Below, piece by piece: positions 4,184-58,689 of a DNA stretch of 64,000 bases (positions are counted from its first letter, which is position 1; every line of letters begins with the position of its first letter). Made by a program: the position numbers and the translations under genes. The notes beneath the pieces are model-generated. The model was not told where the DNA came from, did no database searches, and saw nothing but the letters and a program-made list of their open reading frames with translations. Origin of the DNA: Bactericera cockerelli (taxonomy: Eukaryota; Arthropoda; Insecta; Hemiptera; Triozidae); assembly GCA_024516035.1 (NCBI GenBank), contig CM044961.1, positions 36,607,112 through 36,671,111 of the forward strand. The letters are read 5' to 3'.

Positions 4184-4186
4184 TAG

Positions 4187-7720: not shown

Positions 7721-7899
7721 GGTGAGAAAAAAATCTGAGTATTTTTCTGAGCTCCCCCCCTCAAATGGTTCCAATTCATAAAAAAATGATACCTATAAAG
7801 TTTTAGCTCGATCGGAAATTGTTAACACGTGCCGCCGGGAGCTTAAAGTTTAGATATGCTAATTAAAGGGGCAATATACGTTTTTCCGCACTTCTTGTT

Positions 7900-9778: not shown

Positions 9779-9829
9779 AGTAAATGACTACAGAACAAGG
9801 TATCCTGACAGCAAAAAAACGGAAATCGG

Positions 9830-12800: not shown

Positions 12801-12945
12801 GTTAGGGGCCCTACAAGGGTCAATCATTGGTATCTCTGTAGGTCAGTGCGTAGCTTATAGCGTTATGATTTTTTGTATGAATATAGCAGCACTGATAAAG
12901 CAGCAGCTTATAGCGTTTTGTTTTTTTTCCGTAGCATTTTAATTG
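9830..12945 (+). repeat. 289-bp monomer array, right arm, ~11 copies
   Basis: The landmark GTAATCCCTTATGATTCCCT starts at about 9841, 10132, 10422, 10711, 11000, 11288, 11585, 11874, 12163, 12459 and 12748. The period is 288-291 bp. Two units are longer, by 7-8 bp, because of an extra GATTTT and, in one, an extra TATA. Copies are very similar, so the array is recently homogenised. A 106-codon open frame recurs in every unit but crosses unit boundaries and has a period that is not a multiple of three, so I do not call a gene. Confidence 0.95.
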
Positions 12946-15375: not shown

Positions 15376-15622
15376 GCCAGCGTCGATGGCATGTTGAATA
15401 CACCGGTTCCCTTCAGAACACCGAAGTTAAGCGACATCCAGCGAGGTTAAGACTTGGATGGGTGACCATTCAAATTCTAATTCTCGTGACGCTGGCTTTT
15501 CCCGGCCCCACTCAGGCTGGGTGAGGTCAATGTGAGTAGCAGGTTTGTGAGTTTCCTGCGAATGGAGGGTAAAACCCCCGTCGTGATATGACCATGGCAG
15601 TTGAAAGCGACGTTAAACCCCA

Positions 15623-18081: not shown

Positions 18082-19697
18082 CTAAACACAGTGTCTCCGT
18101 AACTCTAAACTATCAGTCAAATCGTTGAATTTATTACTGCTCCCCTCATCATTTATAGAATCTTTCTTGTTTGAATGAACGTGGATCGAATCATTTGGTA
18201 GATAAAAATCCGATATAAGTGGGGAAGTGTTGAATTCTCCATTGCAAACATTGCTTTTCTTAATATTAGTATTGGTGTTGGTTGCTATTTCTTCAATTTT
18301 ATCATCTGTTATTTTGGATTGTGACAATTTTTCATCAAAACATGAGTTTTCTTTACTATCTACAAGGGAGCTGCTGGAAACATCTAAATCATTCTGTATT
18401 AGATTTGGACTAGTGTACATGCTAAGGTTTCCTGAACTTTCATCTGAATCTAAGCTATTAATAACTAAATTGCTACTATTATTACAAAATATGTCAAGAG
18501 ATTTTTTTGCTTCTTCTCTTTTCTCTCGCGAGTTCATTGTATCTTCAAGAGGGGGATGGAATCCATTTCTCACTTCATCTACAGGTTTACTTTCCGCACT
18601 AGGAAGAGTGAATATATCTAAACAGGACGGTATACGAGGTTTCTTACTACTTTGTGGCGTTATCAACTCAACACCAGAGAGATTACTTTCATCTCTTTGT
18701 GGCGTTATCAACTCAACAGCAGAAAGATTACTTTCATCTCTTTGTGGCGTTATCAACTCAACAGCAGAAAGATTACTTTCATCTCTTTGTGGCGTTATCA
18801 ACTCAACACCAGAGAGATTACTTTCATTACTTTGCGGCGTTATCAACTCAACACCAGAAGGAGTACTTTCATTACTTTGCGGCGTTATCAACTCAACATC
18901 AGAGGGAGTACTATCATTACTTTGCGGCTTCAACAAATCAACAACAGAAGGAGTACTTTCCTTACTTTGCGGCTTCAACAAATCAACAACAGAAGGAGTA
19001 CTATCATTACTTTGCGGCGTTGTCAAGTCAACACCAGAGGGAGTACTTTCCTTACTTTGCGGCTTCAACAAATCAACAACAGAAGGAGTACTTTCATTAC
19101 TTTTCGGCGTTATCAACTTAACACCAGAAGGAATATCACTACTTTGAGGCTTTGTCACCTCAACATCACAAGAAGTACTTTCATTCGTTTGCGGTGTTAT
19201 CAACTCAACACAAGAAGGAATACTTTTATTACCTTGAGGCTTTGTCAACTCAACACCACAAAAAGTATATTCATTACTTTGCGGTGTTCTGAACTCAACA
19301 TCACAAGGAGTGATCTTACCACTTTGAGGGTCTGACAAGTCAACACTATAACTGGTGGATTGGAAGAAGGTAATATCGTCATCATCTTCCTCTTCATCAA
19401 ATAATTTGTGATTTTGTTTTCTCATTGATTCCCCGCTTGCACTTTCAAACTTATCTGCATTGGCTTTAAGGAAATCTAAATCCATGGTTGATTTGAGGAA
19501 GTTGAACTCTGTCTTGTGGCTGGGTAGAGGCAGAGGGGAGGTCTGGGTGAGAGGCGACACCAGGTCTAGCTTGAGTTTCTGCTTGGTGTGGCACAGCTCG
19601 CCCAGGGTAGACGTGGAAGGGGGGGAAGCCTCCACGTCATCTGTGGAGCGGAAACTGGTGACCGATTCCTCACCAGCCTCGGGTCCGCTTGCATCCG
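18082..19697 (-). CDS. LMTK: LMTK exon 15 (last coding exon, stop)
   Basis: The acceptor CCCCAG at 19698-19703 is followed in phase 1 by DASGPEAGEESVTSF. It codes residues about 1847-2384: a Ser/Thr/Pro-rich start with TSPLPLPSHK, LDFLKANADKFESASG, an acidic DEEEDDDD stretch, 16 tandem 15-residue repeats, and a Ser/Asn-rich end. It terminates with TAG. No domain beyond disorder is visible in the final 200 residues. Confidence 0.9.
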
Positions 19698-22600
19698 CTG
19701 GGGATAAGAGCAAATAAGAAACTAGTGGGTGACACAATTTGTCAAATTACATTTAAAAAAACTAATTTACAGTTTAATTAAAACCATAAATAGACAACAC
19801 AATAACACACCTTTTAAAGTGAAAAAGAAGACGATTACTTTCACATTAAATCAAGCCCAAAATATCATTGAAAAGACATAGACTTTTAAAAACAAGTCTC
19901 AAAATAGAAAAAAGAGAGATAAAGAGCAAGTTATGTGTGTTATTATGTCACAATTTTTAGTGGGTAGCATCGACATTACTCGAACTAATGCTAATGCATC
20001 CATACCTCCAACCAACTATCATATTCCAATATCAATCTCTTAATGCCGCCACTGGTTGTTGCCTACTATACATGTAACCTAACATAACCGAATTGTCCTC
20101 ACGAGGCTAGGGTAGGGCTCGACATCCAAAGTACAGAGCCGAAAAAAATTCGACTCCGCTGGAATTCAAACCCAGGTCACCTGGAGTGCAAGCCGAGCAT
20201 GCTACCGCTAGTCCAAGGTGACAACTCAAAAGACATCGACACCTGTAATGGATTATAAAAAATAGAACTCAAGAGCATGATGTCTAGAAGTTTGCCTTAC
20301 GCTGAAAGAAGAAGCTGTTGGGATAGTCTCCGACGAAGAACTCCGAGGAAGTGTTGTGGAATGGCCTCAGAGATGAGCTGATGAAGAACTCGCCATCCTC
20401 CGTGCTCATGGGACTGGAGAACTGGACATAGTCAAAGTTGAGGCTGCTAGGGGTCGGTCTGGAGGCCTTGCACTCGCTGGGGTCTCGCGGGTACTCGTAC
20501 ACACAGTGGTAGTGCTGCTTCTTGAAGCTCACGTTCTTCTTGGGTTCCTGGAGATAGAGAAACGGAATAGGTGGGGTGGTTATCAAGCCCTCACTTCATC
20601 TTGTCTGTACAAGACAATTTATTTTGAGTCTCACCCCTATGCTAAGTCAGTATTTGTACAATGTCCGCCATTGATCATGAACCATTTTGAAATGCCTCTA
20701 TTTTCGAGACTGGATTTGTAGATCTTAGTAGACACTATCCCTTAACTTTCACCTTGTCAACAACTGTAGAGGTCATATCGTAGCTGTATATTACTTCTGT
20801 GGCGCAACAGAGCTGCCTTATTACAATAAATGGCATTTTGTTTACTAGCAGCATTCCATCAAAGAAAAATTCATTACGAAATATCAGTTTTATGGAAAAT
20901 ATAGGCATTTCAAAATGGTTCATGATCAATGGCGGACCCTGTATTTGTTCAGGCCCTGTATCTTCAGGATTTTTTATTTTAAATTCTTCTAAAATTGAAG
21001 TAGGTAATATAATACCATTACATTCAAAATGCACACAGAAAGCACTATTACACAAATATGAAACTTACATTGCTGTCTGGCTTGTTAATTTTGAGTAGGG
21101 ATTTCGCAGGCACTGCATCAGAGTTCCAAGAGGAAGGAACAAACTCCTCATCACTATCTGAATGTTGCTCTACATCTTCACTGGGGGAGAGTGGATTCTG
21201 TGAGAAATAATCATTACTTTAGTTTCTCATTGAAATAGAAAGAAGTTAGTGTAAATGTTGCTCTACATCTTCACTGGGGGAGAGTGGATTCTGTGAGAAG
21301 TTAATCATTACTTTAGTTTCTCATTGAAATAGAAAGAAGTTAGTGTAAATGTTGCTCTACATCTTCACTGGGGGAGAGTGGATTCTGTGAGAAGTTAATC
21401 ATTACTTTAGTTTCTCATTGAAATAGAAAGAAGTTAGTGTAAATGTTGCTCTACATCTTCACTGGGGGAGAGTGGATTCTGTGAGAAGTTAATCATTACT
21501 TTAGTTTCTCATTGAAATAGAAAGAAGTTAGTGTAAATGTTGCTCTACATCTTCACTGGGGGAGAGTGGATTCTGTGAGAAGTTAATCATTACTTTAGTT
21601 TCTCATTGAAATAGAAAGAAGTTAGTGTAAATGTTGCTCTACATCTTCACTGGGGGAGAGTGGATTCTGTGAGAAGTTAATCATTACTTTAGTTTCTCAT
21701 TGAAATAGAAAGAAGTTAGTGTAAATGTTGCTCTACATCTTCACTGGGGGAGAGTGGATTCTGTGAGAAATAATCATTACTTTAGTTTCTCATTGAAATA
21801 GAAAGAAGTTAGTGTAAATGTTGCTCTACATCTTCACTGGGGGAGAGTGGATTCTGTGAGAAGTTAATCATTACTTTAGTTTCTCATTGAAATAGAAAGA
21901 AGTTAGTGTAAATGTTGCTCTACATCTTCACTGGGGGAGAGTGGATTCTGTGAGAAGTTAATCATTACTTTAGTTTCTCATTGCAATAGAAAGAAGTGTA
22001 AAAGTCCAATTTTATTGTTGTTTTAAGTGAGAAAAAAAACAACAAATAAACAGTGAAGTTTGTAGGTTCTATTTACCATTTCAGGTTGTTGAGAAACATG
22101 ACAACACGGTTTTTCTAGGTAGACGGGACATTCCTCTGTTTTGCGTCTGGTAACCCAATTTAAAATAAGTAATCTATGTGTCTCTCGATGGTTGTATTTT
22201 TTTTTTTTTTTACACATAAAGTGTAGTACCATTCAGTTAATTCATTTATCATTCGTGCCTTTGAGTATCTTTGACGCTTTACATGATGTCACGAGGAATT
22301 AACTTTACACAGGTACGTCGTTCTAGTCAGAATACTCATGTTAAGCAACATCGAGCATGGATGACAAATTTCGCGCACAAGTCCATTTGTTTCTCTTAGT
22401 ACCAGAATCAGCTCAGCCTGGCTGAGGTTAATGACTGGAGCTGGATTCTTATTGTTAATAGCCCATGTAATTGAAAAACACGCTAAGTCCAAATAAAAAA
22501 CAACCTTGTCTCCTATGTTATTTTATAGTTCATGATTATTAGTTATAGTTCATGATAGATATGAGAAAATTTTGTTTTTACTATTCATATTGATTGAATT

Positions 22601-25600
22601 TTTTAACCCATGCATGGAAACTTGTTTTTAAATTCGAAAACACTTACCGTCCATATGAACTCTGTGCTTCCATTGTCCGAGGATGAAGAGGGACTAGTGG
22701 ATTCAGCGTCATCCACTTTGGTGACAATGAAGTTCCTGAACCTGGAGCTGACCACTGCATCCACAGAGCAAGACCTACTGGCAGGCGAGAGCTCCTCACT
22801 GTCCAGATGTTGTAGTGTGGGCCAGCTCTTGCTATTGACGGAATGCCGGAGACCTTTGCTTGGGGACTCCTGTGTGACTTCATCCTTAGTACCATTCTCC
22901 ACACTAATAAGAGTATCACCTAAGGCTAGAGGTTTCAAAAATTCTTCAGAAAAAGTTTTTAATTCTTTGTTTTCTGTTTCATCTACTTTTGAACCATTTT
23001 GGGTGAGTAATTCATCAATGTTTTGAACAGCGTTTTTCATCTGATCTTCTTTATCAAAGGGAGAGTTATGATTTAGTGAGCTGACAGGAGACCATTGTCC
23101 AGTTTTGATTTCTATTTCAGCATCCTCATTGCTGACGGGTAGAACAGGCAAACTGAGTAAGTCATCAATGTTTTGAACAGCGTTTTTCATTTGATGTTGT
23201 CTTATGTTTGCGGTTTCATCTTCTTTGTCAAAACAGCGGAGATTCTCTTTAATTATTGACTGGTTCATTGTGTCAATTAGAAATGGGTTAGTAGAATAGT
23301 TCATCGTATTGCAGGTCTCATCTGGGCTGTGAAAAGGATTAAGACCTTGAGAGTGAAGAAAAGGATTATGACTAGGTACTCGTACATCACCCCTTATGAA
23401 AGGGTTTTGAGTTTCTTGCATTCTGTTTGCATATGCCTCTGAGCAAGACTTACTATCACATGCTTTGATTAGGTTTTCTACCAGATCAGTGCTTTCAACA
23501 CTTTTGTTTTCTTGAAAGCTATTGCATGTTGCATTACTTGTAGCGTTTGCATGACACATTTCTTTGTTGCTATTGATTGGTTCGTCAAACACATTTGTGA
23601 ACAGCTCCTCATTGCCAATCAAACACTTTTGACTCAGTGGACTTGATATATCTTTATCATAGCAGAGAACATTTCTTCTGAGAATATCGTCCAGTGGGGT
23701 CTCTAAGCCTTGATTCTGCTCACTAGAATCATCGAAAGGATCGTTCAAGTTTGTGAATATTCGTATACATGAGGGTGAGTCGGACTCAATAGTAAAGTCC
23801 CGTAGGTTATTGCTGATAATATTCTCGTCCAGTTCATTATTCTTGTTCAGGGTAGACAAAATTTCCTCAAATATGACATTGTCTGTTTCACTGGAACAAG
23901 ATTGACTCTTCAACTCAGGAGCTGCAGAGTGTTTGGGTGTATCCAACTGATCTGTAAGAGTAAGTTGTGAACTAGTCTTGTTCTGATGTTGGGGAGACAG
24001 AGTTTCGTCAAAGTTGACATTGTAGAGTGTCTCACTGGAACAAGATTGACTTTTCAACTCAGAGGCTGCAGAGAGTTTAGGAGTATCCAACTGATCTGTA
24101 AGAGTAAGTTGTGAACTAGTCTTGTTCTGATGTTGGGGAGACAGAGTTTCGTCAAAGTTGACATTGTAGAGTGTCTCACTGGAACAAGATTGACTTTTCA
24201 ACTGAGAGGCTGCAGAGAGTTTGGGTGTATCCAATTGATCAGTGGATGACTCATCTTGGAGTGTGAGTGAATTGTGACTCAAGTCGTAGATTTCAAAGTT
24301 AGGTAAGGTAGGAACATCTTGCGATTTCTCATCGTAGGAGGGGAGCGAGGCGGGTTCAGAAACTGACAGAGAGACGGTGTAGTGAGAGTGTGACGGGGAT
24401 GAAGAGAGACTATCTGGGGATAGAGACCTCTCTGATTCACTGCAGTCTACCTCCAGAGGTGCCCTGGGACTGAGCAGGGTGGCTTCATTAGACTGAGTGT
24501 CTACAATGAGAATATCCTCTTCCTCTTCAGTGTCAGAATCACTGGCTCTCTTATTAAAGGGAACCAAGTTTAATACTAAACTTGATTGATCCTCATCTTC
24601 TACAGATTCGTATTCTGTTTCACTCTCTTCTAAAATCGGACTTAGACTCTTTGGGTATTGCACGTACAGGGTTCTGGTTTCAAGTGTCTCGTCTTCTTCT
24701 TCTACTTCTTCACTATGAGTGACATTTGTGTTGCTACTGGAGGGTAGTTTATCACTCAGCTCCTTCCTCAACGCCTCTGCTACATCAGAATTGAGCAGAA
24801 ACTTCCTGTCGTCTCTCCACCACTCTTCTTCATCAGAGCTGCTTGCTTCATAATCTTCTACATACAGGGTGTCCTTGTTTATAATGGAAGCGTCGTCATC
24901 ACTGGGGGGCTCATGCAGGTACCACCCTGTCTTTACACTCGCCGAACTCAACAAGTCCTGAAAGAGACCATCTTCAATGTCATTCAGATTGTACTCTTCA
25001 CTCTCGAGGAGCTTGTGCTGGGGATCCAGTGTGATTTCATCATTGTTATCAGAGAGGTCATTATCCGAGAGACTGCCTTTATCACGGAATCCCGAGTCAC
25101 AGCTATGATCTTCATCCGGGGTGATGATACTCTTGTAATCCGACGGGTTTCTGTCTTCCTCAGTTTTGTAACTGCGACTATCATCGTCTGTTTTGTAACT
25201 TTTCTCGTCATCCGTGGTGCGAGAGCTTCTATCATCTTCGAGGGTTAGTTTGGGTTCCAGGTCTAGCTGAGAGAACATCTTATCTTCCTCACTGACTGTC
25301 TTGAGCGGGGTTGTAAAGTCCAAGCTAAACTCATCGCAGCAGCCAATGATCACTGAGCTCGCGCTTTCTTCTGCTTCGCAGCGCGATGGCTTGAGAATGA
25401 ACTGCGAGTGCTTTGTGCTGTCATCGCTATCCTCGTCATTCTCACTCGAGGAAGCAAAGTTCACAATGCGCACGTTACTTTTGTAGTAGAGAGGAGGCGG
25501 ATGTACAGGATCGCACAACTCTTCATCACTCACTTGTGCAGGTTCAGATTCTGAAATGATAATTTTGGGTACACTATCACTTGTTTCGCTAGGACTAGAT

Positions 25601-26533
25601 TTGATCGCCACATCAAATGGTTGGTTGTTGGTTTGTTCCGAGGCACTATGGTCTAAAAAATGGTTCCCAGGAACAGGAGGCTCGCGTGATCTGTACGGGA
25701 GAGAAACAAAATCTTCCTGCACCATGGAGAATCGCTTCCCCGTGTCCTCGCACTGGACACGGTCCAGAATGTTAGAGTCACTAGAGGCACGTCGCACCAG
25801 GTACTTCTTGGGTTTACTCGCAGCATGCAGCTCGAGTGAAGACTCGCTGCTTCCACTACTGGCGTCAATGTGAGTGAGCACCATGAGATCCGCCACTGAC
25901 TTGGATTTCTCCTTCACCTTCTCGCTGAACTCACAACGCTCCAACCGTTTCCTCCACATCTCATCTTCAGTGTCCGTGTCCAGTAGTGAATTGTTTGTAC
26001 TCCGCAGCTGGTAGGGTAAGCTGAGACTGTCAGCTTCATTATCTGCGTAGCTGGGAGACGATTTGAGCATGCTGGTGCTGCTCGACACAGGACCTGAAAT
26101 ACAACAACACCATATGTTGTAGCCCACCATGACACAATACACGGATTACCAGAAATGGAAGGTGAGTTTGATTCAATCTGAAATGGAAGGTGAGTTTGAT
26201 ACAATCTTAAATGGAGGGTGAGTTTGATTCAATCTGAAATGGAAGGTAAGTTTGATACAATCTTAAATGGAGGGTGAGTTTGATTCAATCTGAAATGGAA
26301 GGTGAGTTTGATTCAATCTGAAATGGAAGGTGAGTTTGATTCAATCTGAAATGGAAGGTGAGTTTGATTCAATCTGAAATGGAAGGTGAGTTTGATTCAA
26401 TCTTTTTTTTTTTTTTTTTTTTTTTATCAAAATATACTTCAATTTATTCAAATTGTTTGTATGTTACATAATAAAATTATAAAAAACAAAATACATTAAA
26501 ATTAAACTTAAAATACTTATACACAAGAATAAC

Positions 26534-26573
<40 letters not shown>

Positions 26574-53500: not shown

Positions 53501-56500
53501 GCCAAGGGATCCCTCATACTTCTAGTCTACTTTGTTTTGTCATTTAGTGCTATCAAGTGAACACGACGGTACCTGGCATACGTTTAATGATGCCTAATAC
53601 TTAAAACTTTGACCATATTATAAGTTTATTTCATGTAATGATGAGAGTAGCAATAATAGCAAACTTTTGAGTTCAGAAAATCTCAGGTGAGCCCACTTCT
53701 GATGTTTTGAAAAAGTCATCCCTTGCCCGGAAGTGAACACGTGGTGTCTCTACTGCCAGGCGGGCGAGTTGTTAGGATTAGAGTCCACACACAAGTACTT
53801 ATCAACAAGCTTTGAATCTCTAATCCGGAGATATGGTTAGATAGTTAGTCACTTGGGTTGTGGGTGTTGTGTATGAACCGAGAATTGCATTCCCATGGTC
53901 AGAAACAGAACAATGCCAGAGATCTATGTACATGTTCTTTCTCATCATTCTTCTCTTTCTAAATGGATGATTATTTGTGAAGTCATCCCATTCAGATTTC
54001 ATCATGCATGAGAGACGCTACTATTTCTGAACTTATCACTCTGTCTGTATCCATGTGCCTGTTTTCAATATAAAGTACTAATCTTCAGAGCAGTTCAGAG
54101 CCTGAGATACAAAACTGCGCACTGGAGACTGGAGATACAAACCTGCGCACTGGAGACTGGAGATACAAACCTGCGCACTGGAGACTGGAGATACAAACCT
54201 GCGCACTGGAGGCTGGAGATACAAACCTGCGCACTGGAGACTGGAGATACAAACCCGCGCACTGGAGACTGGAGATACAAACCTGCGCACTGGAGATACA
54301 AACCTGCGCACTGGAGGCTGGAGATACAAACCTGCGCACTGGAGGCTGGAGATACAAACCTGCGCACTGGAGGCTGGAGATACAAACCTGCGCACTGGAG
54401 ACTGGAGATACAAACCTGCGCACTGGAGACTGGAGATACAAACCTGCGCACTGGAGACTGGAGATACAAACCTGCGCACTGGAGGCTGGAGATACAAACC
54501 TGCGCACTGGAGGCTGGAGATACAAACCTGCGCACTGGAGACTGAGATACAAACCTACGCATTGGAGGCTGGAGATACAAACCTACGCATTGGAGGCTGG
54601 AGATACAAACACCGCGACTCTGACTGACGTGTGACAGATCCTTGCAATCCAGTTTTATAATAGCTAGGTGTACTGTTATCCTGACCGAGATGATACTACC
54701 AGCTGTTCTCAAACCTACAGATCGCGGGATATCCTGATACCACCAGCAGTTCTCAAACCTTAAGTTCGCGTGCAGCTGTTCTTTAAATCAACTGGTGATG
54801 TAGGAATTGTAGAGAAATACCTACATCTCCCTTATGATGATTTTTCTACGTATTTTTCAGTTATCTATGTTTGTGTCTACTTATCAAAGACCAAATGTTT
54901 CTGTTGATGAGTTTGTTTCCAGTAGAACTAGAGAACCAGGTGGGAATCAAAATCATAACCTGGTTGTTCAGAGATAGGTCTTATATCTTGGCTATGTTGA
55001 CTTTCGTACAATAACAACTAATGATTATAAATTATCAACTAAACTTCAAAGGAAACATAATTTTTTCAGTTTGCATACTTGTTTACTCACACTTTGATGA
55101 CCACTTGGACCTCATCAAGTAGATAGGTATCATTTTACATCTTCAATCATTATTCCTTCCCTCTTTTCCTATCTGGCTTGAAACCAGACAATAGCCTCGG
55201 GCTCTGGGTAAGCTACTCAATACTATGTAGTAAAGCTCATACGGGAATGGCACTGGTTTGTAAGGTCATCTTACACTTTTTACAGGGTCACCAAGAAACA
55301 TAGGTAATTATAAATTTCTTTTTCTATAAACGTTCTAGGTATAAAATTAAAGCAAAGAAGAAGAAATGAGAAAGAAAATAGTGTATGAGGTTATGAACTC
55401 TCTTATGAGGGCAGCTATTGTTTCAATAGCTGCCTTCATAAGAGGAGCAAAACAATGAAAATTTGGGGAAGTGCTTACTATGCCAAAGCTTGCAAAATTG
55501 AACTCAGATAATAACTGTAAGACATTGATTTTTTGTTCCACATTTCACTTTATTTAAAGTGGCAGGATTCTCCTGATGGAGCTCTTTCATCCAGCCACTA
55601 AATAATTCATTCATTCCCAGATTTTAGGTAGGTATCTCACAAGGGATGCCTTGAAGTAGCCCAAATCAGGTGAGTCCCTAATGTCAATATGAAGAGAATT
55701 CCACAGCCTAGCCGCGGACACATGGTAAGAGTCACATTTATATTTGCAATATTATTTAAGATCCAAAATTAAAATCTACTAAGAGAAACCTTCTACAGAT
55801 TGGCTGGCTTTTTTCACTCCTAATTAATGTTTCCTCAATTGAATATTTATATGATCAGGAATGGGTGAGTAGAAGAACCAGGAATGTCAAAAATCGACTT
55901 TTCAGGAAAGCACAAATAAGATTTGTCTTATTTTTGCTTTCCTGATGCTAATGAGTATAATAAAATTAAATTTTACATTCCTTGTTATTCAACAAGATTC
56001 TCACAACTAACAGGTACTAATACCGCTAGCAAAAGTGGTCAGTGATTTTGTTACATTCCTTATTTTACATCAGATTTTTTTTCCGCTTCCCCCACTTTAA
56101 AATCGAAAAAAATTATACTTTTAAGGGGTATTTCTCCTTCATATTCACAGAGATGATAGAAAAGAGTACATTCCTTCTTATTCTACGAAGAAAAAAAAAT
56201 CGATTTTTGACATTCCTGGTTCTTCTAGGTACTCACCCATTCAGTTATTGTTCATAGGTACCTACCTATTCTTAATAAATAGTGGATAACACAGATTTTA
56301 AGTGGCAAAAATATGAAATTTTTCATATTTTTGCCTAGTGTCAAGTATTATGATATTACCTATGGCTGAAAATGTAGAATGAAATAGCTCTAGAAATTGA
56401 ATAATATTTCAATGACCTGTAACCTTTACACTCTTTGACTAACTAATAAATCAATATTCTATAAATACAGTTTGCTTTAAATTGAATCATGTCCATCAGA

Positions 56501-58689
56501 CCATTTTTTCAAGGAGTGAGAGAGGTACCTACATTTGAAACTTTGTTGTTTATTAATTGCTATGATTTACAATATTGTATGATCAAAATTAAAAAAATAA
56601 AAATACTTAACCTTTGGTGAAAATTTCAATCTGCATTGTACCTACAATGAACAAATCAGGGGTAAACAATAAACTTGCTGCCTTCTATGGACATAAATAT
56701 TATTTTAAAAAAATATTTTTAATGGTAATAGGTGAAACCTTCAAGTAGAAATTATATAATATAATTATGTAAATTTAAGAGGTTTTACCTACAGTACTAC
56801 TGTAGTAAATTATGTTTCACAATAGCATTTTCAAGCTGGCATTCTTCTTCTTTCATTTTACCTTTTTCCAAACCTACTTGGGGTCAACACTGATCAACCT
56901 CATGGTTTAGGTTGTGCTTTTATCAAATGTTATTACATATTCTTAACAATACTTCCTTGTGATTGTGGTCAACATTGAATGCACTTGTCAAATGTGAGAT
57001 TTTATACTGAATCACTTGTATTCTCCAAAACTTCTGAACCAATTCTCTTCAAATTGTGTTATTTGGTAGCATACTTTGGGTCCTACATTTTAGATTCTAC
57101 AAAGAAAAATTTGTATCAGCAAGTCATAGACCTAATTTTTTCACTTTATTGTTCAACATTTTGGTTTTTCTAAATATCAGAGCCCAATCTTAAAAAATAA
57201 TTACAAATGCACAAACATGAAACACCAATATGCAGATACATATAAAGTTTCATTAAAATTGGGTGTATGGTTCACAATAGTGTATACGTAAAAAGTTAGA
57301 GGTCTGGCACATGGTGCCTGAATTTAAAATGGGATCATCTACAATATGTCTCCTATATTTACATAAAGTTTTGTTGAAGTCCTATCAACCAGTTTCTGAG
57401 ATATACATGTTACAATGAATGTATTTAACAGACCAATAGGTAGATCAACAGACAGACACAAAAACCAAAATTGCTCAGGAGGTTTGAAACATCCAGAAAA
57501 AATTGCAATCAGTGCAAAAAAATATTTTTTTTTTATAAAAACAAACACAATACCTATAGGTAAGTACTTTTGATTTCTAATATTAATATTTTGTGGAAGT
57601 AAAAGATTGTGTTTCTTGAAAAGGCAACATTTCCACACAACCTACCTAGAAAATTTCTGTTTCAGATACTTTACAATTTACAAAGAAATAAAAATATGTA
57701 CACTTCTTTTTTTGCCAACTAGTATGAAGTAAAAAAATACCTATGGTATGACAAAAATTCTTAGAACCATTTTTGCTGCTGTAGTAAATGGATCACTTGC
57801 ACCTACTTTTTTACTGACTTCATAGAAAGCATTCATCTGGATATTTATAGTATTTTTTTTTAACGGTAAACATTAGAAATTTGAAGAATTTTTTTTTTAA
57901 TGCCAGTCACTATTCCTGCTGTTAAAACCAATTAGGTTAGGTGCTATAAAACTTGCTATATTACATACTAAAAATCGTAGATAAGTTAGCTACTCAAAAT
58001 TACAAATGACAGTTCTGATGGCAGAATTTTTTTCTTCTTATTTTAGTTACATCTCAAGTTGTGCAAACAGTATGACATATAGCTCAATGTTCCACACCCG
58101 TGTACAAATATGAAGAAAAAAAACAATTCCACTGTGCATACGATAATTTTTCAGGTGCTTATTTCTGACTTCCACAATCAAATAAGAAAATGGTACATGA
58201 CTTTTTGATGTGACTTGAATACCTTGGTGTGTAAAATTCACCAAAAAATTTGATGCCACTTACTTAATGAATTCACCTGTGAGATAAAAAGTGATATTCA
58301 ACCACAAGCAGGCTAACTCTCAGTTGTACATAGCTGATGGGGTTTGAACCTGAGTTCATGGATTAAGAGTACTACATTCAGCATTGTGTACATTGCCTGA
58401 TGTGTGTAAAGGATTTAGAATAGTGAAGGATGCTCTTCACAATGCTGAGCTACCATTTGGGTGGATAATTCATATTATATCAACGGAACTGTCTGATTCA
58501 ATTTATAGACCAAGAAAATGATACCTTTTGCACAGAAATCATTTGCTTAGGTATCTCGGTTGCTTGGACTGTAGGTTTCTGAAGCACAAATTTAATAGTT
58601 TGTGGTGGTGAAACAAAAAACTTACCAGTGAGGCCTAGGGGTCTTGCATTTAGAAGATCAAACAAACAGCACAGCACCAAGTACCACAT
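18082..58689 (-). CDS. LMTK: Lemur-tail-kinase family receptor-like kinase, 15 coding exons (whole-gene span)
   Basis: Join on the minus strand: 58689-58626, 51928-51801, 49761-49615, 45353-45134, 44725-44652, 42792-42577, 41872-41739, 41377-41197, 40873-40710, 40106-39835, 39513-39397, 26093-22648, 21197-21069, 20547-20301, 19697-18082. All introns are GT-AG, all phases match, and the length is 7155 nt (2384 residues). Order: signal peptide 1-15, TM 31-53, kinase about 198-480, acidic tail to the end. Family-specific features are the G-loop GRGWFGK, an H-x-D loop with DVAARN, the KIGD start of the activation segment, DYYV and RWCAP, NVWSFGVLLWE, and a huge Ser/Asp/Glu tail with a late KNVSF motif. 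In vertebrates LMTK proteins act on endosomes, trafficking and PP1 binding; such roles here are inferred. Other RTKs are excluded by the tiny ectodomain and the tail. A noncoding 5' exon may lie further upstream. Confidence 0.93.
18650..19335 (-). repeat. LMTK: In-frame 45-bp repeat in LMTK exon 15, ~16 copies
   Basis: The protein unit PQSNESTPSGVELIT (15 residues) recurs about 16 times, with sub-types PQRDESNLSAVELIT and PQSKESTPSVVDLLK in clusters. Being 45 bp, it keeps the frame, except that one unit lost a codon (PQSSDIPSGVKLIT). Most units offer S/T-P or T-P-Q phosphorylation sites. Terminal copies are diverged while central copies are nearly identical, so the array expands from the middle. 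Confidence 0.95.
20105..20225 (-). mobile_element. tRNA-like SINE head in LMTK intron 14
   Basis: On the minus strand GGACTAGCGGTAGCATGC (A box) and GGGTTTGAATTCC (B box) are separated by a normal tRNA distance. It lies in the intron between exons 14 and 15. The body is unresolved, and it is unlikely to be an active tRNA because it lacks a clean acceptor stem. Confidence 0.55.
20301..20547 (-). CDS. LMTK: LMTK exon 14 (RVxF-like PP1 motif)
   Basis: The acceptor CTCCAG precedes EPKKNVSFKKQ. KNVSF (residues 1768-1772) fits the RVxF phosphatase-1 docking pattern, and the position matches the KAVSF region of vertebrate LMTK tails. YEYPRDPSE follows. The donor is GTAAGG after CTTTCAGC, leaving phase 1. 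If unspliced, the frame would stop six codons later, giving a short isoform. Confidence 0.88.
20657..20943. mobile_element. 287-bp MITE in LMTK intron 13
   Basis: Terminal inverted repeats of about 48 bp: TACAATGTCCGCCATTGATC at the left and, on the opposite strand at the right, TACAGGGTCCGCCATTGATC, both continuing through ATGAACCATTTTGAAATGCC. The flanks repeat TTTG (20653-20656 and 20944-20947). There is no coding capacity. Confidence 0.85.
21069..21197 (-). CDS. LMTK: LMTK exon 13
   Basis: 43 codons in phase 0: NPLSPSEDVEQHSDSDEEFV, then PSSWNSDA and KSLLKINKPDSN. The acceptor is TTTCTCACAG and the donor GTAAG. The acidic DSDEEFVPSSWNS block is the sort of conserved tail island seen in LMTK proteins. 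Its first 37 nt and the acceptor are copied eight more times upstream in the intron. Confidence 0.9.
21161..21995 (-). repeat. 94-bp array copying the exon 13 acceptor, 9 copies
   Basis: AATGTTGCTCTACATCTTCA starts at 21161, 21254, 21348, 21442, 21536, 21630, 21724, 21817 and 21911. Each unit contains 37 nt of exon 13, the CAG acceptor with its TTTCTCACAG tract, and about 57 nt of intron. Copies 1 and 7 have GAGAAATAATC (93 bp); the others have GAGAAGTTAATC (94 bp), which points to a six-unit block duplication. Confidence 0.96.
22023..22647. other. Remainder of intron 12, with a decayed 5S-derived SINE
   Basis: At about 22325-22460, ACTCATGTTAAGCAACATCG and AGCATGG resemble the 5S internal promoter, and AGCTCAGCCTGGCTGAGGTT resembles the central domain of the SINE at 15376. 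The rest is AT-rich with a T run at 22199. Confidence 0.5.
22648..26093 (-). CDS. LMTK: LMTK exon 12 (giant tail exon)
   Basis: 3446 nt, residues about 573-1721, from PVSSSTSMLKSSPSYAD to STEFIWT. Acceptor TTTCAG at 26094-26099, donor GTAAG. Almost wholly acidic and Ser-rich, consistent with disorder. It contains islands shared with LMTK tails such as SGWYLHEPPSDDDA-like (VKTGWYLHEPPSDD), EEWWRDDRKFLL, QNPFIRGDVRVPSHNPFL with repeated NPF (EH-domain-binding tripeptides, suggesting endocytic partners), and SPILEESETEYES. There is a 48-residue tandem repeat near the middle. The single long exon is typical for this family. Confidence 0.93.
23880..24245 (-). repeat. LMTK: In-frame 144-bp repeat in LMTK exon 12, ~2.5 copies
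   Basis: TDQLDTPKLSAASELKSQSC and SSETLYNVNFDETLSPQHQN recur at a 144-bp (48-residue) period; ATCCAACTGATC starts at 23941 and 24085, with ATCCAATTGATC at 24229. Copies two and three are almost identical. The length is a multiple of three, so the frame survives. Confidence 0.93.
26153..26402. repeat. 28-bp minisatellite, left block, ~9 copies
   Basis: The unit GGTGAGTTTGATTCAATCTG plus AAATGGAA lies 60 bp upstream of the exon 12 acceptor. It matches the block at 38629-39391 on the other side of the LINE, so the LINE split one array. On the minus strand each unit reads CTTCCATTTCAG, a good 3' splice-site look-alike. Confidence 0.95.
26520..26840. repeat. GA-rich microsatellite in the LINE 3' UTR
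   Basis: About 300 bp of (GA)n with GGA and AAAGA interruptions lies between the ORF2 stop and the poly(A) tail. Because it lies inside the LINE, it either travelled with the element or grew after insertion. Confidence 0.9.
26897..29704 (-). CDS. CR1-like LINE ORF2: endonuclease and reverse transcriptase
   Basis: About 935 codons remain open. The N-terminus is an APE-type endonuclease (FHLNISSLRNK, EHWL, YRTPEQ, CGDINIHL, YSDHSAQ). The RT follows with YRPISILPILGKIIERII, SQFGFRK, GSILGPLMFLLYINDLP and the catalytic FADDST. The C-terminal region (SYNTRNKQN, VKFYNKLPNNI, FYSIEEFL) is typical of CR1/L2/Daphne-group elements, and there is no RNase H. The left coordinate is a TTG. The frame is open further upstream into ORF1 and the first in-frame ATG is 16 codons later, so the real start is uncertain and may depend on reinitiation after ORF1. 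No stops or frameshifts are seen. Confidence 0.9.
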   Translation of the reverse strand: MTLFHLNISSLRNKINMLEAFLLGHKPQPQVVCITEHWLSRGDEIYCNMQDYNVVTSRSRSLSRNNISHGGVLIYLKKSSDFKFKILDQLESLAKDSVCELTGIKLTEYNILIVVVYRTPEQSNLQQFLSIFEKMLSTYGLDHKLCICGDINIHLNNHHNPETMAFLNLITSYGFIQTTMQPTRLDNCIDNIFINFNTDDFSAAVFDLGYSDHSAQLVSVPMPYFSSHHTKLIKTRPITEAGKLCFRNIVMQLDWSFISESNKCVDEKFEIFQNNLSDAAKIAFIEKTKIQKPNSGTGCSAFNFTPELKQLRRDLHKIARLYKSSPSAELAIRKSTVRKKYRSQLTKAKKQANDGRMERSANPNKTAWEIIKQNSARENPAVNSEITPDEFNKNFSEAPLTIINALPPSDTDPRDLITKVDVTHIDEEFSLQEVTTDTVKNAMASLARKKGRDIYGLNLDILLCICDLTAPVLANLINLCFRESTFPNCLKTGLIHPVFKKGERNKPSNYRPISILPILGKIIERIIADQITQYIAYYNIFSSSQFGFRKTLSTTDAVNFFNTFISDSFNNNAYTYATMCDLSRAFELLNHDILLLKLSHYKFQPSSIIFLKSYLENRVHIVKLNEHLSDPQRVNTGITTGSILGPLMFLLYINDLPSNLPTYGKATIFADDSTLYVEDKNEAEAVRKGDIVLSYAQAWFDANRLHLNRNKTQRIMISLKKISVPHNPTSVKLLGFYVDPHLNWQSHINYVSNLLSSRIFLLRRLQKEVSPPILKNAYYGLIHSIISYGVLLWGHTSSSQQLFIIQKCAVRLISYAKSRDHAKPLFINQGILTLPSLFILRCLLSVKNNLSNYRTPDTFHSYNTRNKQNLIPIRHRVNAARNGSNYHGVKFYNKLPNNIRELPDRAFKLYIEDYLLKKAFYSIEEFLSSDLGANN
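29776..30409 (-). pseudogene. CR1-like LINE ORF1, 3' portion
   Basis: Continuation of ORF1 after the BEL insertion, ending NKQGPISNT. It carries the DxxH box (KDKLHLN) that would complete the SGNH-type hydrolase begun in the other portion, then a Pro/Ser-rich tail. Bases 30405-30409 (TGTGG) are the second copy of the target duplication. Excluding that copy, the two portions total 1539 nt, exactly 513 codons including the stop. Confidence 0.88.
30410..30643 (+). repeat. BEL 5' LTR (234 bp)
   Basis: Runs from TGTCGTGAAC to ATTATCGACA. It contains CTATAAAAGC (TATA box-like) near 30466 and AATAAATTTA downstream as a possible poly(A) signal. By eye, no difference from the 3' LTR. Confidence 0.96.
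30655..30672 (+). promoter_or_regulatory. Primer binding site, initiator-tRNA-Met type
   Basis: TGGTAGCAGAGCGTGGTT, 11 bp past the LTR, is complementary to a tRNA 3' end of the form CUCUGCUACCA, the acceptor end of eukaryotic initiator tRNA-Met. The first 12 bases fit best and the last few less well. Confidence 0.7.
30695..36667 (+). CDS. BEL/Pao Gag-Pol polyprotein, 1990 residues
   Basis: The ATG at 30695 (MAVPMSIKRSY) is chosen because upstream codons lie in the LTR and primer site. Order: coiled Gag N-terminus; a 7-residue YDRPSPT repeat (31270-31650); DUF1759-like Gag (LPKINLKTFSGYNLQEFQEF); zinc knuckles (CVFCKSIDHKSYDC, CRYCQQRGHHNSAIC); aspartic protease (LDSGATASYI); RT (RFVMDASA, PFGVVSSPF, catalytic box YVDN); RNase H (FSDACQKAYSAV, RCELLG, WCDNQCVLHW); integrase with H-H-C-C zinc site (CPTCTKF), GIDYFGP and LSDNATQF; and a C-terminal DUF5641-like domain (GDVVLIRQ, RPVSWLFPFE). 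No stop or frameshift. Plausibly active, apart from the unusual YVDN. Confidence 0.95.
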   Translation: MAVPMSIKRSYKQAIIQLNLQKKELGELLKTEISANNVFQIKSYVQTADKSIAEFEDKLEALEEAAPDEDTFKIYVKDIDLEDSISLKQLISNLNASIEQYEKREAKEQLLIDRHEELQSEREFRLQKEELEFKLKEFQINAKKEVDLKSIMWQQLTIAAPSFRCPNDDSSLHTVESCDGSPFQSRHSSPEPLHHLDRPSPTTDRPSPTSDHPSPTSDHPSPAYDRPSPTSDRPSPTSDRPSPTYDHPSPAYDRPSLVHDRPSPASDHPSPTYDRPLPTYDRPSPTYDRPSPAYDRPSPAYDRPSPTCNRPSAACDRPSDIRAALNPNQVVILSKPEENVGVGQLGNLPKINLKTFSGYNLQEFQEFWDIFNCTIHGRNDLSNIQKLTYLKSILSGKAAKLLTSVRLTDNNYHVAIQILREHYDIPQITTVRIYNEITNLKPESDKISDMHNFYLELEIRFKLLENQNCNLENPILINNTFQKLSPKLQEKLVNNHGVTMTIRNIRDIMNSDLIMHRTLSSLKNEIDSDFSHKRKDYRSYNGPNNYHGPNNGKLYHYGKDKKPNIFTSSTLVSHSNDNNNVKQYTQHCVFCKSIDHKSYDCDKYSTYEDRRERMSGCCFLCLSDKHLFSHCTKKHFKCRYCQQRGHHNSAICPKQFQFKNVTGHKTAGKSNSNQCVSVSYSDSKLLSSNDGSETNLYNNVKSKVFLQTASIYILNPVTKTGCMIRAILDSGATASYITQRLFDRLGIKNKYSKNVNVFTFTEKHPKSMTVHGATIMLYDKDGNSYNIDVSVVPTLVGRMRQSGDDLDLLKRIGETYTLADINHYSGDDQEFDLLIGNDYYTQFLLGEKVQVLENLYLLNSVFGYLISGKLAYASDCDTSLDSDTSLFIQVDEPAQHLQDLRSFWDLDTLAIRDCPYQNDDDKALVDFQRKVKFEEDRYFVQFPWKDDSRDVQTNFGLAYGRLSSVIKRHKTDGVLQACKKTFDEQLKTGVLEQIENEPTENCHYLPFHAVVKTDPQTTTKIRFVMDASARQDRKKPSLNDLLYRGPVLLENLCGMLLRFRLNKYGLIADIEKAFLNVGLQIEDRDFTRILFLKNPDLPLSYENLVVYRHCRIPFGVVSSPFLLAGVLDTHLAKYDKDRYVELLSRDIYVDNLVTTLNNGCDVVEFIQRSREIFSEASMNLRSWSTNYVGTDYDYLPPDIKSDSLVQKVLGIEWNIETDMIYVRDTFKYPNNIITKRILLSFYGSIYDVMGLWSPALVPLKLLIQESWKLSKDWDVELGSEEKSTFNKVLNDIKLIPTYRLPRVLTEINNETVYELHGFSDACQKAYSAVVYLRCQSNSKTDTKLVFSKVRLCPIKEVSLPRCELLGMLITYRSMEFVKKSLGIKIAKSYLWCDNQCVLHWVNSKKVLPTFVQNRVKEIRTNTMQLNFKYVPTDSNPADIACRSQSAEILKNNSMWWNGPRWLNQPFECWPHYNLDSWPEEENDVELITTVVNIIPVTKPVPIDENKFQSFNKLVNVTAYVLKAVSVLTKRNINARGPITSDEFAHSKQKWLKYLQEKYFSDTFNSLKQNKKNSLAVNLCLELVDGLLVCKGRFLELQIDGKHIFPILLPRKDHLTKIITLDIHKKVFHLGTNQTLSQLRLEYWIPSGRTEVKSILHKCPTCTKFRVNPYQTPEFSSYPAYRLNKNVAFTYTGIDYFGPLYVKEGNKTRKIWCIIFTCLTVRAVHFELTDSQNTTDLLLAFRRFIARRGGCQEILSDNATQFHLFKKTMYAIYDSNNLHNLLNEHKIQYKFTPSLSPWAGGCYERLIGITKQCLRKTLGKLTLTNRQLETLMTEIEQTINSRPLGYFGEEDMILTPNCFLGIKHDGLLPDASACREKKYDTSFNVLLKEWKKGNKYLDMFWSKWRSQYINYLRERNDINFKGKKCSKFSPCLGDVVLIRQVKQKRTNWPYGVVVKLHEGRDKRIRYVDVRNSLGHIVTRPVSWLFPFENGF
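31270..31650 (+). repeat. 21-bp in-frame repeat inside BEL gag, ~17 copies
   Basis: The unit encodes D-R/H-P-S-P-T/A-Y/S and repeats without frame loss. It is a proline-rich linker between the coiled N-terminus and the conserved Gag domain. Third-position and Arg/His variation show several rounds of duplication. Confidence 0.95.
36937..37170 (+). repeat. BEL 3' LTR (234 bp)
   Basis: Same start and end as the 5' LTR. It is preceded by a near-duplicated stretch (two copies of TGTACCTACTTATTTAATTG, at 36720 and 36820) rather than a convincing polypurine tract. Confidence 0.96.
37171..38080 (-). pseudogene. CR1-like LINE ORF1, 5' portion
   Basis: Starts MSLSTNKSITIPIK at 38080. The first ~150 residues are Lys/Ser/Pro-rich, then a short coiled stretch (ISSLEELLKSKD). 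An SGNH/GDSL-type hydrolase domain begins with CHIIGDSHVRHL (the nucleophile block) and includes MCGTNDV. Esterase-like ORF1 domains are known in CR1-clade LINEs. The frame is cut at 37171 by the BEL LTR, and the catalytic DxxH lies in the other portion. The truncated frame runs a few codons into the LTR before stopping. Confidence 0.88.
38629..39391. repeat. 28-bp minisatellite, right block, ~19 copies
   Basis: Same unit as at 26153-26402, with AATGGAAGG, AATGGAGGG and AAAGGAAGG sub-types intermixed. It runs directly into the exon 11 donor: the last unit ends GGTGAGTT and the next bases are CTTAC, the donor itself. A retroposon interrupts it at 39117-39326. Confidence 0.95.
39117..39326 (+). 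mobile_element. Short retroposon inside the minisatellite
   Basis: Starts GGGTTAAGTGGTAGAGAATG and CCTAAGGCATTAACTTCGCC, continues with T-rich DNA, and ends in (AAAT)n. GGGT occurs at both edges. Related sequence occurs at 13750-13920 and about 43118-43345. The family lacks a recognisable head. Confidence 0.6.
39397..39513 (-). CDS. LMTK: LMTK exon 11
   Basis: 117 nt, phase 1 at both ends: GSLENLTDHSWLAISSVSQL, then REGNASSAQPSLPPVDFQL. Acceptor CTTCACAG, donor GTAAG. It links the post-kinase region to the giant tail exon. It is the only short exon whose donor is followed immediately by the minisatellite. Confidence 0.88.
39751..39880 (-). repeat. 68-bp duplication of the exon 10 donor, 2 copies
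   Basis: CTAAAGAGTAGTTTACCTGT begins at 39751 and again at 39819, both continuing into GAAGTTCTCGAGACTCGG. Both copies contain the last part of exon 10 and its GTAAAC donor. Using the outer donor would add 68 nt and shift the frame. Confidence 0.93.
39835..40106 (-). CDS. LMTK: LMTK exon 10 (end of kinase domain)
   Basis: Begins VFNMMEQCWRQGVTMSDVLT, the kinase subdomain XI region. The usual Arg-Pro-Thr after CW is missing (CWRQGVTMSD). It then continues FNRKWGMYKPNRTLSDDRDS and SLENFTG. Acceptor TTCCCCAG, donor GTAAAC, phase 2 to 1. Confidence 0.9.
40710..40873 (-). CDS. LMTK: LMTK exon 9 (kinase C-lobe)
   Basis: VTEKCNVWSFGVLLWEIFEF, then GKLPYSELSDDQVITRV and FGPEALRLAAPAAASTQ. NVWSFGV corresponds to the DVWSFG box of kinases, with Asn for Asp as in other LMTK proteins. 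Acceptor TTGCAG, donor GTAAG. Confidence 0.92.
41197..41377 (-). CDS. LMTK: LMTK exon 8 (catalytic loop, activation segment)
   Basis: DVAARNCLVTSELRVKIGDT, then GSSIDKYPRDYYVNGEVALP and IRWCAPQSLV. The loop Asp329 and Asn334 and the metal-binding Asp347 are present, but HRD reads HTD and DFG reads DTG. Acceptor CTCCTCAG, donor GTGAG. Confidence 0.92.
41378..41738 (-). repeat. 85-bp array filling intron 7, 4 copies
   Basis: TGTCTATGCTAGACCCGGTG begins at 41301 in exon 8 itself and again at 41405, 41490, 41575 and 41660. Each extra copy has an internal piece of exon 8 fused to the acceptor tract TTTCTCCTCAG, lacking the exon's first 20 or so bases. The array occupies the whole intron, up to the exon 7 donor. 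Confidence 0.96.
41739..41872 (-). CDS. LMTK: LMTK exon 7 (kinase hinge to catalytic loop)
   Basis: GDLKEFLLSNEISRNVLLEQ, then GIAIRMAIDVATGLSHMIDN and DFIH. Acceptor TTCCGCAG, donor GTAAG, ending in phase 2 inside the Thr codon of HTD. Confidence 0.92.
42577..42792 (-). CDS. LMTK: LMTK exon 6 (kinase N-lobe)
   Basis: VVEGEARGLEDAQRRTKVFV then RILKEEAAQAEKLFFLHEAR and PYRQLRHSNILRLLGACIET. The beta-3 Lys position aligns with Arg232 (KVFVR, where vertebrate LMTKs have VVVK, with equal spacing to the EA-PYR block). GC-rich compared with its surroundings. Acceptor TTGCCAG, donor GTAAC. Confidence 0.9.
42719..42942 (-). repeat. 112-bp duplication of the exon 6 acceptor, 2 copies
   Basis: TCCTTGAGTATGCGCACAAA begins at 42719 and 42831. 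The second copy includes 74 nt of exon 6, its acceptor and intron DNA, with one C/T difference (CCTCTCGCC for CCTCGCGCC). Confidence 0.95.
42920..43090. repeat. 48-bp intronic minisatellite, ~3.5 copies
   Basis: CAGTATTATTATTCTTACAC, then ATTAACATACATAATCTAGG, repeats directly behind the duplicated exon 6 fragment. Its first unit derives from the intron part of the 112-bp unit. Confidence 0.85.
43118..43345 (+). mobile_element. Short retroposon, related to that at 39117
   Basis: GAGGGTTAGGTGGAAGAGAA and CCACAGGCTTC echo the 39117 element start, followed by T-rich DNA and AATAATAATAC. Boundaries are approximate. Confidence 0.4.
43700..43790 (-). mobile_element. tRNA-like SINE head in intron 5
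   Basis: On the minus strand TAGCTTGATTGATAAGGCG (A box) and GGTGGTTCAAGTCC (B box) are spaced as in a tRNA, with CTTTTAACC between them as an anticodon-like loop. The body is unresolved. Confidence 0.5.
44410..44700 (-). repeat. 100-bp array copying the exon 5 donor, 3 copies
   Basis: GATAGAATTACCTTC starts at 44441, 44541 and 44641 (the last is the real exon). Each unit carries 45 nt of exon 5 (the G-loop coding part), its GTAAT donor and intron DNA. The outermost copy has CTTCACAAA for CTTCCCAAA, so it is diverging. Confidence 0.96.
44652..44725 (-). CDS. LMTK: LMTK exon 5 (glycine-rich loop)
   Basis: DDSGFQFPRQQLHYVKEIGR then GWFGK. GRGWFGK is the LMTK form of the ATP-binding loop. Acceptor TTTCAG, donor GTAAT, phase 1 to 0. 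The downstream donors in the two extra copies are equally good. Confidence 0.92.
44965..45055 (-). mobile_element. tRNA-like SINE head in intron 4
   Basis: On the minus strand CCTCCGTGGCTTAGTGGTAG (A box) and GGAGGTTGCGGGTCAA (B-box position), followed by an A/T-rich body. A complete SINE is likely but the tail is not defined. Confidence 0.55.
45134..45353 (-). CDS. LMTK: LMTK exon 4 (juxtamembrane)
   Basis: EFRNSTHSLNQIGFVNPLSC, then a Pro-rich stretch with PPPGGPHSIISFEPLPTLVP and RPPAYSEALVQQLSMQSWF. RPPAY resembles a PPxY-like WW-binding motif. Acceptor TTGCAG, donor GTAAG, phase 0 to 1. Confidence 0.88.
45870..46450. repeat. 72-bp minisatellite in intron 3, ~8 copies
   Basis: ACTCCTGTATGAAGAACATA starts at about 45955, 46027, 46099, 46171, 46243, 46315 and 46387, after a longer first unit at 45875. 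It includes no exon sequence. Alternating TCTGACC and TCACACC variants suggest a two-unit duplication phase. Confidence 0.95.
46850..46985. mobile_element. Decayed SINE with central domain
   Basis: CACAACTCAGGCTGGTTGAG then GTTGATGTGAGTAACTG matches the central domain of the SINEs at 9430 and 15376. The head is not recognisable. Confidence 0.5.
47165..47370 (-). mobile_element. tRNA-derived SINE, second copy of the 2750 family
   Basis: The minus strand shares GCGCTAGTCTGGTAATCCAG, GGATCCGTTGGTTC and the AGGGTTAGGTGGTAGAAAAT body with the SINE at 2750-2970. The head is 5'-truncated and the B box has decayed (GGTTCAAATCC). Confidence 0.75.
47400..49614. other. Remainder of intron 3
   Basis: AT-rich DNA with no repeat or exon that I can support. 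CTTCCTCCACCACCTG at about 47419 resembles the exon 6 boundary but continues differently. Confidence 0.4.
49615..49761 (-). CDS. LMTK: LMTK exon 3
   Basis: 49 codons, phase 0: PKTSPLTDIEPSTHCSEAPP then APPSQKDEEIEIVVSLSC and DGCDTNPE. Cytosolic juxtamembrane. The acceptor has a strong tract (CTCTGTTTTCACGCAG); the donor is GTAAC. Confidence 0.88.
49762..51800. other. LMTK: LMTK intron 2
   Basis: About 2.0 kb of AT-rich DNA, with no exon, RNA or repeat that I can support. Confidence 0.6.
51801..51928 (-). CDS. LMTK: LMTK exon 2 (transmembrane helix)
   Basis: SPVTSGAELWVLISVAVFTS, then TVFLLLGCLCCNRRKASS. The hydrophobic span is residues 31-53, flanked inside by a di-cysteine and basic NRRK stop-transfer, so type I topology with a very short ectodomain. 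Acceptor GTTACAG, donor GTGAG, phase 1 to 0. Confidence 0.92.
51861..52820 (-). repeat. 115-bp array copying the exon 2 acceptor, 9 units
   Basis: GACAGTGGAGGTGAAGACAG starts at 51861 (real exon), then 51976, 52091, 52206, 52321, 52436, 52551, 52666 and 52781 (truncated), with GAACACAG in the adjacent copies at 52436 and 52551. Each unit holds the first 70 nt or so of exon 2 with its GTTACAG acceptor, but no donor. As 115 is not a multiple of three, all three frames stay open across the array and produce spurious ~350-residue frames. Confidence 0.97.
52830..54090. other. Part of LMTK intron 1
   Basis: AT-rich DNA with no supported gene or repeat. Confidence 0.4.
54098..54611. repeat. 28-bp minisatellite in intron 1, ~17 copies
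   Basis: GCGCACTGGAGACTGGAGAT plus ACAAACCT, with GACT/GGCT variants; one unit has lost 10 bp (near 54291) and the last two are diverged (ACGCATTGG). It yields false open frames in all minus frames. Confidence 0.95.
54620..55858. other. Part of LMTK intron 1, with a short hairpin
   Basis: AT-rich. CTTATGAGGGCAGCTATTG (55402-55420) is followed after TTTC by AATAGCTGCCTTCATAAG, an 18-bp stem with a tiny loop. Nothing codes. Confidence 0.55.
55859..56243. mobile_element. ~385-bp MITE in intron 1
   Basis: Terminal inverted repeats of about 38 bp: GAATGGGTGAGTAGAAGAAC at the left and, on the other strand, GAATGGGTGAGTACCTAGAA at the right, both leading into CCAGGAATGTCAAAAATCGA. An internal hairpin AGGAAAGCACAAATAAGA/TCTTATTTTTGCTTTCCT sits just inside the left end. 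No target duplication could be fixed. Confidence 0.8.
56250..58300. other. Part of LMTK intron 1
   Basis: AT-rich with TAGGTACCTAC-like short motifs. I see no gene, RNA or defined repeat. Confidence 0.4.
58626..58689 (-). CDS. LMTK: LMTK exon 1 (start codon, signal peptide)
   Basis: The ATG at 58689 opens MWYLVLCCLFDLLNA, a short signal peptide, then RPLGLT and a phase-1 donor GTAAG. An in-frame TAA lies a few codons upstream, so this is the first possible ATG. Phase 1 joins exon 2 exactly. The small size makes this the least certain exon, but signal, phase and upstream stop agree. Confidence 0.75.

Follow-up and report, generated by a model that had tools for sequence, protein, structure and literature searches.

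Separate tandem arrays lie at six of the 28 splice sites of an LMTK kinase gene in Bactericera cockerelli, the splice site in use being inside the array in five cases and directly against it in one. Within this single gene, which was picked for its oddity, there is an excess of arrays at splice sites. On the sequence evidence, and by analogy with published cases, these arrays appear to be of a known kind, i.e. the duplicated exon-intron boundaries named 'mirages' in amphioxus, encountered here in an insect, with six in one gene being unusual. We consider it probable that all six are exon-edge minisatellites of this mirage type, each started by one local duplication and enlarged by unequal exchange.

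The LMTK gene model

The window, i.e. the whole stretch of 64,000 nucleotides that was analysed (GenBank assembly GCA_024516035.1, contig CM044961.1, positions 36,607,112 to 36,671,111 of the forward strand), is animal DNA, and the gene, which runs on the minus strand from 58689 down to 18082, is of the insect LMTK kinase type. Its model comprises 15 coding exons, with GT and AG at all 14 introns and a single terminal stop, and encodes 2405 aa:

58626-58689, minus strand, LMTK exon 1
51801-51928, minus strand, LMTK exon 2
49615-49824, minus strand, LMTK exon 3
45134-45353, minus strand, LMTK exon 4
44652-44725, minus strand, LMTK exon 5
42577-42792, minus strand, LMTK exon 6
41739-41872, minus strand, LMTK exon 7
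41197-41377, minus strand, LMTK exon 8
40710-40873, minus strand, LMTK exon 9
39835-40106, minus strand, LMTK exon 10
39397-39513, minus strand, LMTK exon 11
22648-26093, minus strand, LMTK exon 12
21069-21197, minus strand, LMTK exon 13
20301-20547, minus strand, LMTK exon 14
18082-19697, minus strand, LMTK exon 15

In protein searches the nearest named relatives, among the best 120 of 386 matches, are those of psyllids, and include Diaphorina citri P0034 (82% over 51% of the 652-aa query) and Cacopsylla melanoneura P0061 (70% over 27% of the same query); a further D. citri protein, P0154 (3403 aa), stands among the best 120 of 436 matches with 62% over 53% of the searched region. A 14-exon model that lacked exon 3 was ruled out by a D. 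citri protein match at 49797-49627. Exon 3 (49615-49824) is nevertheless likely to be a cassette exon, since both its ends are in phase 0, its omission also leaves the frame open, and it is present in D. citri P0034 and absent from D. citri P0154. Most kinases carry the motifs HRD and DFG; this LMTK kinase has HTD and DTG (in the exons at 41197-41377 and 41739-41872), of which HTD is common to the relatives compared and DTG is found also in D. citri P0034.

Arrays at six splice sites

Arrays were located with Tandem Repeats Finder together with an offset-identity check. Those at splice sites affect four acceptors (exons 2, 6, 8 and 13) and two donors (exons 5 and 10), and consist of near-identical units of 68-115 bp in 2.0-8.9 copies:

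51859-52820, minus strand, exon 2 acceptor array, 115-bp unit (45 bp of intron end and 70 bp of exon), 8.37 copies
44412-44696, minus strand, exon 5 donor array, 100-bp unit, 2.85 copies
42718-42942, minus strand, exon 6 acceptor array, 112-bp unit, 2.01 copies; authentic acceptor 42792/42793
41378-41733, minus strand, exon 8 acceptor array, 85-bp unit (24 bp of intron end and 61 bp of inner exon 8), 4.19 copies
39743-39882, minus strand, exon 10 donor array, 68-bp unit, 2.06 copies, AGTC at both ends; authentic donor 39835/39834
21161-21997, minus strand, exon 13 acceptor array, 94-bp unit, 8.90 copies; authentic acceptor 21197/21198

The initial annotation had reported boundary-crossing arrays at six of 15 exons, and these are real in the assembly, with the exon count, units and copy numbers holding. 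Its description of every unit as a piece of exon plus splice site plus intron is accurate for exons 2, 5, 6, 10 and 13 and has to be amended for exon 8, where the array ends exactly at the used acceptor, touching rather than crossing it, and where each copy has, behind the same intron end, 61 bp from inside exon 8 that leave out the exon's first 19 bp. Apart from its first 5 bases, intron 7 consists of this array. The outermost copy of each array continues unbroken into the rest of the exon, save in exon 8, where the array stops at the acceptor; in exon 2 the outermost copy is the one that bears the authentic acceptor (51928/51929). The splice AG or GT is intact in every copy, giving 8, 3, 2, 5, 2 and 9 motifs for exons 2, 5, 6, 8, 10 and 13, respectively; the motif is TGTGTTACAG in exon 2 (intact 8 times), GAAGGTAATT in exon 5 (3 times) and TTCTCACAGAATCC in exon 13 (9 times).

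The internal structure of the arrays bears on how they may have formed. The exon 5 unit is made up of an 85-bp duplicated piece and a 15-bp filler, with the authentic donor at 44652/44651. Repeats at the array ends measure 1 bp in exon 6, 4 bp (AGTC) in exon 10 and 16 bp in exon 8, and are longer in exon 2 (42 bp) and in exons 5 and 13 (85 bp each). Three kinds of unit occur among the seven full units of the exon 2 array (four, two and one) and two kinds among eight in the exon 13 array (six and two), the rarer of the latter at non-adjacent places. In mirages the inner copies are homogenised and the edge copies less so; in the LMTK arrays unit kinds are few and variants are common to non-adjacent copies, the differences being too few for edge and inner copies to be compared. 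A first duplication at short homology or with filler would fit the end repeats and the 15-bp filler of exon 5, and unequal exchange or conversion would fit the small number of unit kinds and the non-adjacent positions of the rarer exon 13 kind.

The same features speak to the possibility that the local tandem copies are false products of assembly. False tandem duplications have been reported in D. citri assemblies (PMC11659978), a mirage of amphioxus came out wrongly assembled in the draft genome (PMC3087553), and the two-copy arrays of exons 6 and 10 are the least defensible here. Nevertheless, we regard an artefact as highly improbable overall, given the several unit lengths, the copy numbers of up to 8.9 and the substitutions proper to individual copies; moreover, the D. 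citri false duplications are ascribed in PMC11659978 to heterologous loci, and would be expected to be larger than 68-115 bp. Judged from these sequence features, the long arrays are unlikely to be assembly errors, and the two-copy ones are the least safe.

The six arrays do not appear to be one repeat that has moved. When the 15 exons with 60-bp flanks were compared with the window by BLAST, each exon-edge piece matched its own array only, as the initial annotation had maintained in calling the arrays mutually unrelated. The remaining links were 22 bp common to the exon 6 unit and a 48-bp array in intron 5, and a weak alignment between exon 12 and intron 2 (69% over 55 bp, E 0.008). A mobile insert or introner was considered as a source and rejected, no sequence common to the exon-edge arrays having been found by BLAST within the window.

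Placement of the arrays in the gene

Other tandem arrays of the gene lie in introns or within coding exons:

54104-54610, minus strand, 28-bp minisatellite in intron 1, no splice site
45892-46449, minus strand, 72-bp array in intron 3, no splice site of the model
42921-43091, minus strand, 48-bp array in intron 5, overlapping the exon 6 array and having 22 bp in common with its unit
39326-39391, minus strand, 28-bp minisatellite in intron 11, starting 5 bp inside the intron
23884-24240, minus strand, 144-bp coding repeat in exon 12, 2.5 copies
18648-19311, minus strand, 45-bp coding repeat in exon 15, 14.8 copies

The two coding repeats are in frame, as previously noted. The 28-bp minisatellite, which had been said to abut both the exon 11 donor and the exon 12 acceptor, does occur towards both ends of intron 11, with further pieces at 38629-39112 and 26152-26403; its far part, beyond about 12 kb of retroelements, ends 58 bp short of the exon 12 acceptor. 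None of the six unit lengths at exon edges is a multiple of three, whereas both coding units (144 and 45 bp) are, which is in line with the edge arrays being untranslated, the numbers being small.

To compare the observed placement with chance, 13 arrays of the gene were counted, each collapsed to one unit, and the retroelement block (26404-38628) was removed, leaving 24171 bp with 28 splice sites. The 13 do not include runs of a single base or of two bases, two further repeats (one of 17 bp, one of 42 bp and rich in T), additional rows for an array already counted, or rows lying inside the retroelement block; the 28-bp minisatellite was entered a single time, its distant pieces being passed over. 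Six of the 13 span or adjoin a splice site, where 1.07 would be expected under random placement (P 0.00028, 200000 runs, for a gene chosen for its oddity); with units of at least 48 bp the figure is six of nine against 0.93 expected (P 0.000075, random placement, with the same choice of gene). Four of the six edge arrays sit in a 5192-bp block dense in exons, where 15 of the 28 sites are found, and circular shifts and a stratified simulation were accordingly run. Circular shifts of the sites reached six in 74 of 24170 cases with 13 arrays and in 61 of 24170 with nine; stratification for the exon-dense block (nine arrays) gave 1.40 expected and a P of 0.0004. The earlier impression that the arrays are centred on the exon edges of this gene is borne out to this extent, and seven of the 13 arrays touch no splice site.

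It could be argued that nothing beyond chance is at work, i.e. that in a repeat-rich genome with arrays everywhere this gene is one of many with several arrays on exon edges, and that it was noticed by a reader seeking oddities. Tandem repeats abound elsewhere in the window as well, seven of the gene's 13 arrays lie off splice sites, and four of the six are in the exon-dense block. Six was, however, reached in only 0.028% of random runs, 0.04% of stratified runs and 0.3% of circular shifts, and we regard chance as a somewhat unlikely explanation. A process directed at exon edges, in which transcription or splicing (through R-loops, or forks stalled at a step in GC content) duplicates the edges, would account for the splice-site excess in this gene and would agree with the exons being mostly higher in GC than their flanks. 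Such a process is, in our view, unlikely, arrays being present also in introns and inside coding exons, and the excess being known from one gene only. That the preference for exon edges might stem from the contrast between GC-rich exons and AT-rich introns is only a guess.

Predicted splicing, known parallels and origin

Use of the authentic sites leaves the frame open, and at junctions 1/2, 5/6, 7/8 and 10/11 no array sequence is added relative to the related proteins, junction 1/2 being poorly conserved in this comparison. Of the 23 possible extensions of an exon to the site of another copy, 21 run into an early stop; the two exceptions, both in exon 2, lie three and six units upstream. From the open frame, the unaltered junctions and these early stops, it is most likely that the outermost site is used and that the extra copies are removed with the intron. 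The role of splice-site buffer that had been proposed for the arrays is unsupported. The exon 12/13 junction is not colinear with the relatives, D. citri P0154 and Cacopsylla P0176 having about 30 or more further residues there, and the exon 13 array may therefore have been accompanied by a loss of coding sequence.

Two arrays only, those of exons 5 and 2, are possible sources of isoforms. In the second copy of the exon 5 array a 42-nt in-frame piece lies between AG and GT (44593-44552), after a would-be intron of 58 nt, and repeats LHYVKEIGRGWFGK of the glycine-rich loop. The 115-bp unit of exon 2 is free of stops in all three sense frames and has many in the antisense frames; only 6 of 5000 dinucleotide shuffles of the whole unit were stop-free in three frames. 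Functional splice arrays that yield isoforms, e.g. by doubling the kinase glycine-rich loop with the 42-nt copy or by extending exon 2, would be consistent with these features and with the open frame across the exon 5 candidate, and have a counterpart in a human minisatellite with alternative donors (IFI6, cited in PMC4526556). We nevertheless think this reading improbable: nearly all of the possible exon extensions run into stops, and the relatives are without such insertions at junctions 5/6 and 1/2. In addition, shuffling the intron part alone of the exon 2 unit left 99 of 5000 sequences stop-free, and six arrays had been looked at, for which reasons a coding function of the exon 2 array is not claimed.

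The initial annotation knew of no described system of this kind; such systems have in fact been described in several amphioxus genes. The term 'mirage' was used there for tandem duplications of exon-intron boundaries in Adh3 and the globins (PMC3087553), and in lancelet PGBD5 repeats of 60 and 108 bp lie over splice sites, with TnC named as a further case (PMC3902484). Mirage units of 10-72 bp are given for Adh3 and of 150-160 bp for the globins BflGb6 and BflGb9, and instability is reported for some of these mirages (Adh3, globins); the authors' Adh3 data and globin RT-PCR suggest undisturbed splicing, and mirages are proposed to be able to give rise to new introns (PMC3087553). The LMTK arrays resemble those described in PMC3087553 and PMC3902484 in that a unit of tens of bp to about 160 bp extends across the boundary between exon and intron, whether at a donor or an acceptor, and in that the splice signals are kept in many copies. 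They differ in the insect host and in the presence of six in one gene, and are known here from the sequence of one assembly. No insect case of the mirage type was found among the titles and abstract beginnings listed in the literature search, most subscription papers being outside its scope.

Other parallels are closer in some respects than in others. In a potato RdRp gene, as described from genome and RNA reads in PMC4974935, duplication over an intron-exon boundary produced a new intron; its authors count few proven recent cases of boundary duplication as a source of introns. There, as in LMTK, an intron end and an exon start are duplicated and carry the splice signals along. The potato gene, however, has two copies and uses the new intron, whereas the LMTK arrays have up to 8.9 copies, with the 42-nt piece of exon 5 as the sole candidate for an inner copy that might be used. 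The human IFI6 (6-16) minisatellite, which provides multiple splice donor sites, likewise places repeat units at a donor, and differs in involving a single array and a single donor and in having transcript variants that are known (all as cited in PMC4526556). The minisatellites near alternative exons of C. elegans were rejected as a parallel; as described in PMC4039745 these are intronic repeats that do not lie on exon edges.

For the mirage-type origin of the six arrays that we favour, the following sequence of events is suggested. Where a fork stalls or the DNA breaks close to an exon edge, repair would copy nearby DNA, sometimes adding a few filler bases; the direct repeats so formed could then recombine and multiply through unequal exchange. 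The spliceosome would take the outermost, authentic site, the other copies would go out with the intron, and the protein would thus be unchanged, so that the arrays are tolerated. Unit lengths near those of the amphioxus mirages support this reading, whilst the seven arrays off splice sites and the lack of colinearity at the exon 12/13 junction count against it, and the two-copy arrays of exons 6 and 10 could be plain duplications. A broader proposal, that exon edges in this insect lineage are especially prone to tandem duplication, where a recurring edge-directed process would seed splice-site arrays in one gene, rebuild introns (as in intron 7) and offer mini-exons (as with the 42-nt piece), so that new introns and isoforms arise, is in our estimate quite unlikely.

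Duplicated exon-intron boundaries have been put forward as one origin of new introns and splice variants. With six such arrays, two of them at two copies and others at four to nine, this gene would set next to one another the likely stages between a single duplication and a long array. Were the excess at exon edges to hold throughout the genome, what causes such duplications could be tested in an insect group for which relatives have been sequenced.

Some further elements were recorded in the window. The sole match to known RNA elements in the window is a 5S rRNA (Rfam RF00001, 65 bits) at 15376-15497 on the plus strand, outside the gene and adjoining retroelement pieces. Long arrays also outside the gene (1-12894) have units of 137 bp (11.6 copies), 113 bp (5.2 copies) and 37 bp (27.5 copies), and arrays of opposite orientation in the same region have units of 289 bp (4.8 and 10.5 copies). 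The retroelements of intron 11 include a non-LTR reverse transcriptase frame (26897-29845, minus strand) and a Pao/BEL polyprotein (30518-36667, plus strand). The 28-bp minisatellite of this intron (26152-39391) is split by the approximately 12 kb of retroelements, and therefore likely predates their insertion.
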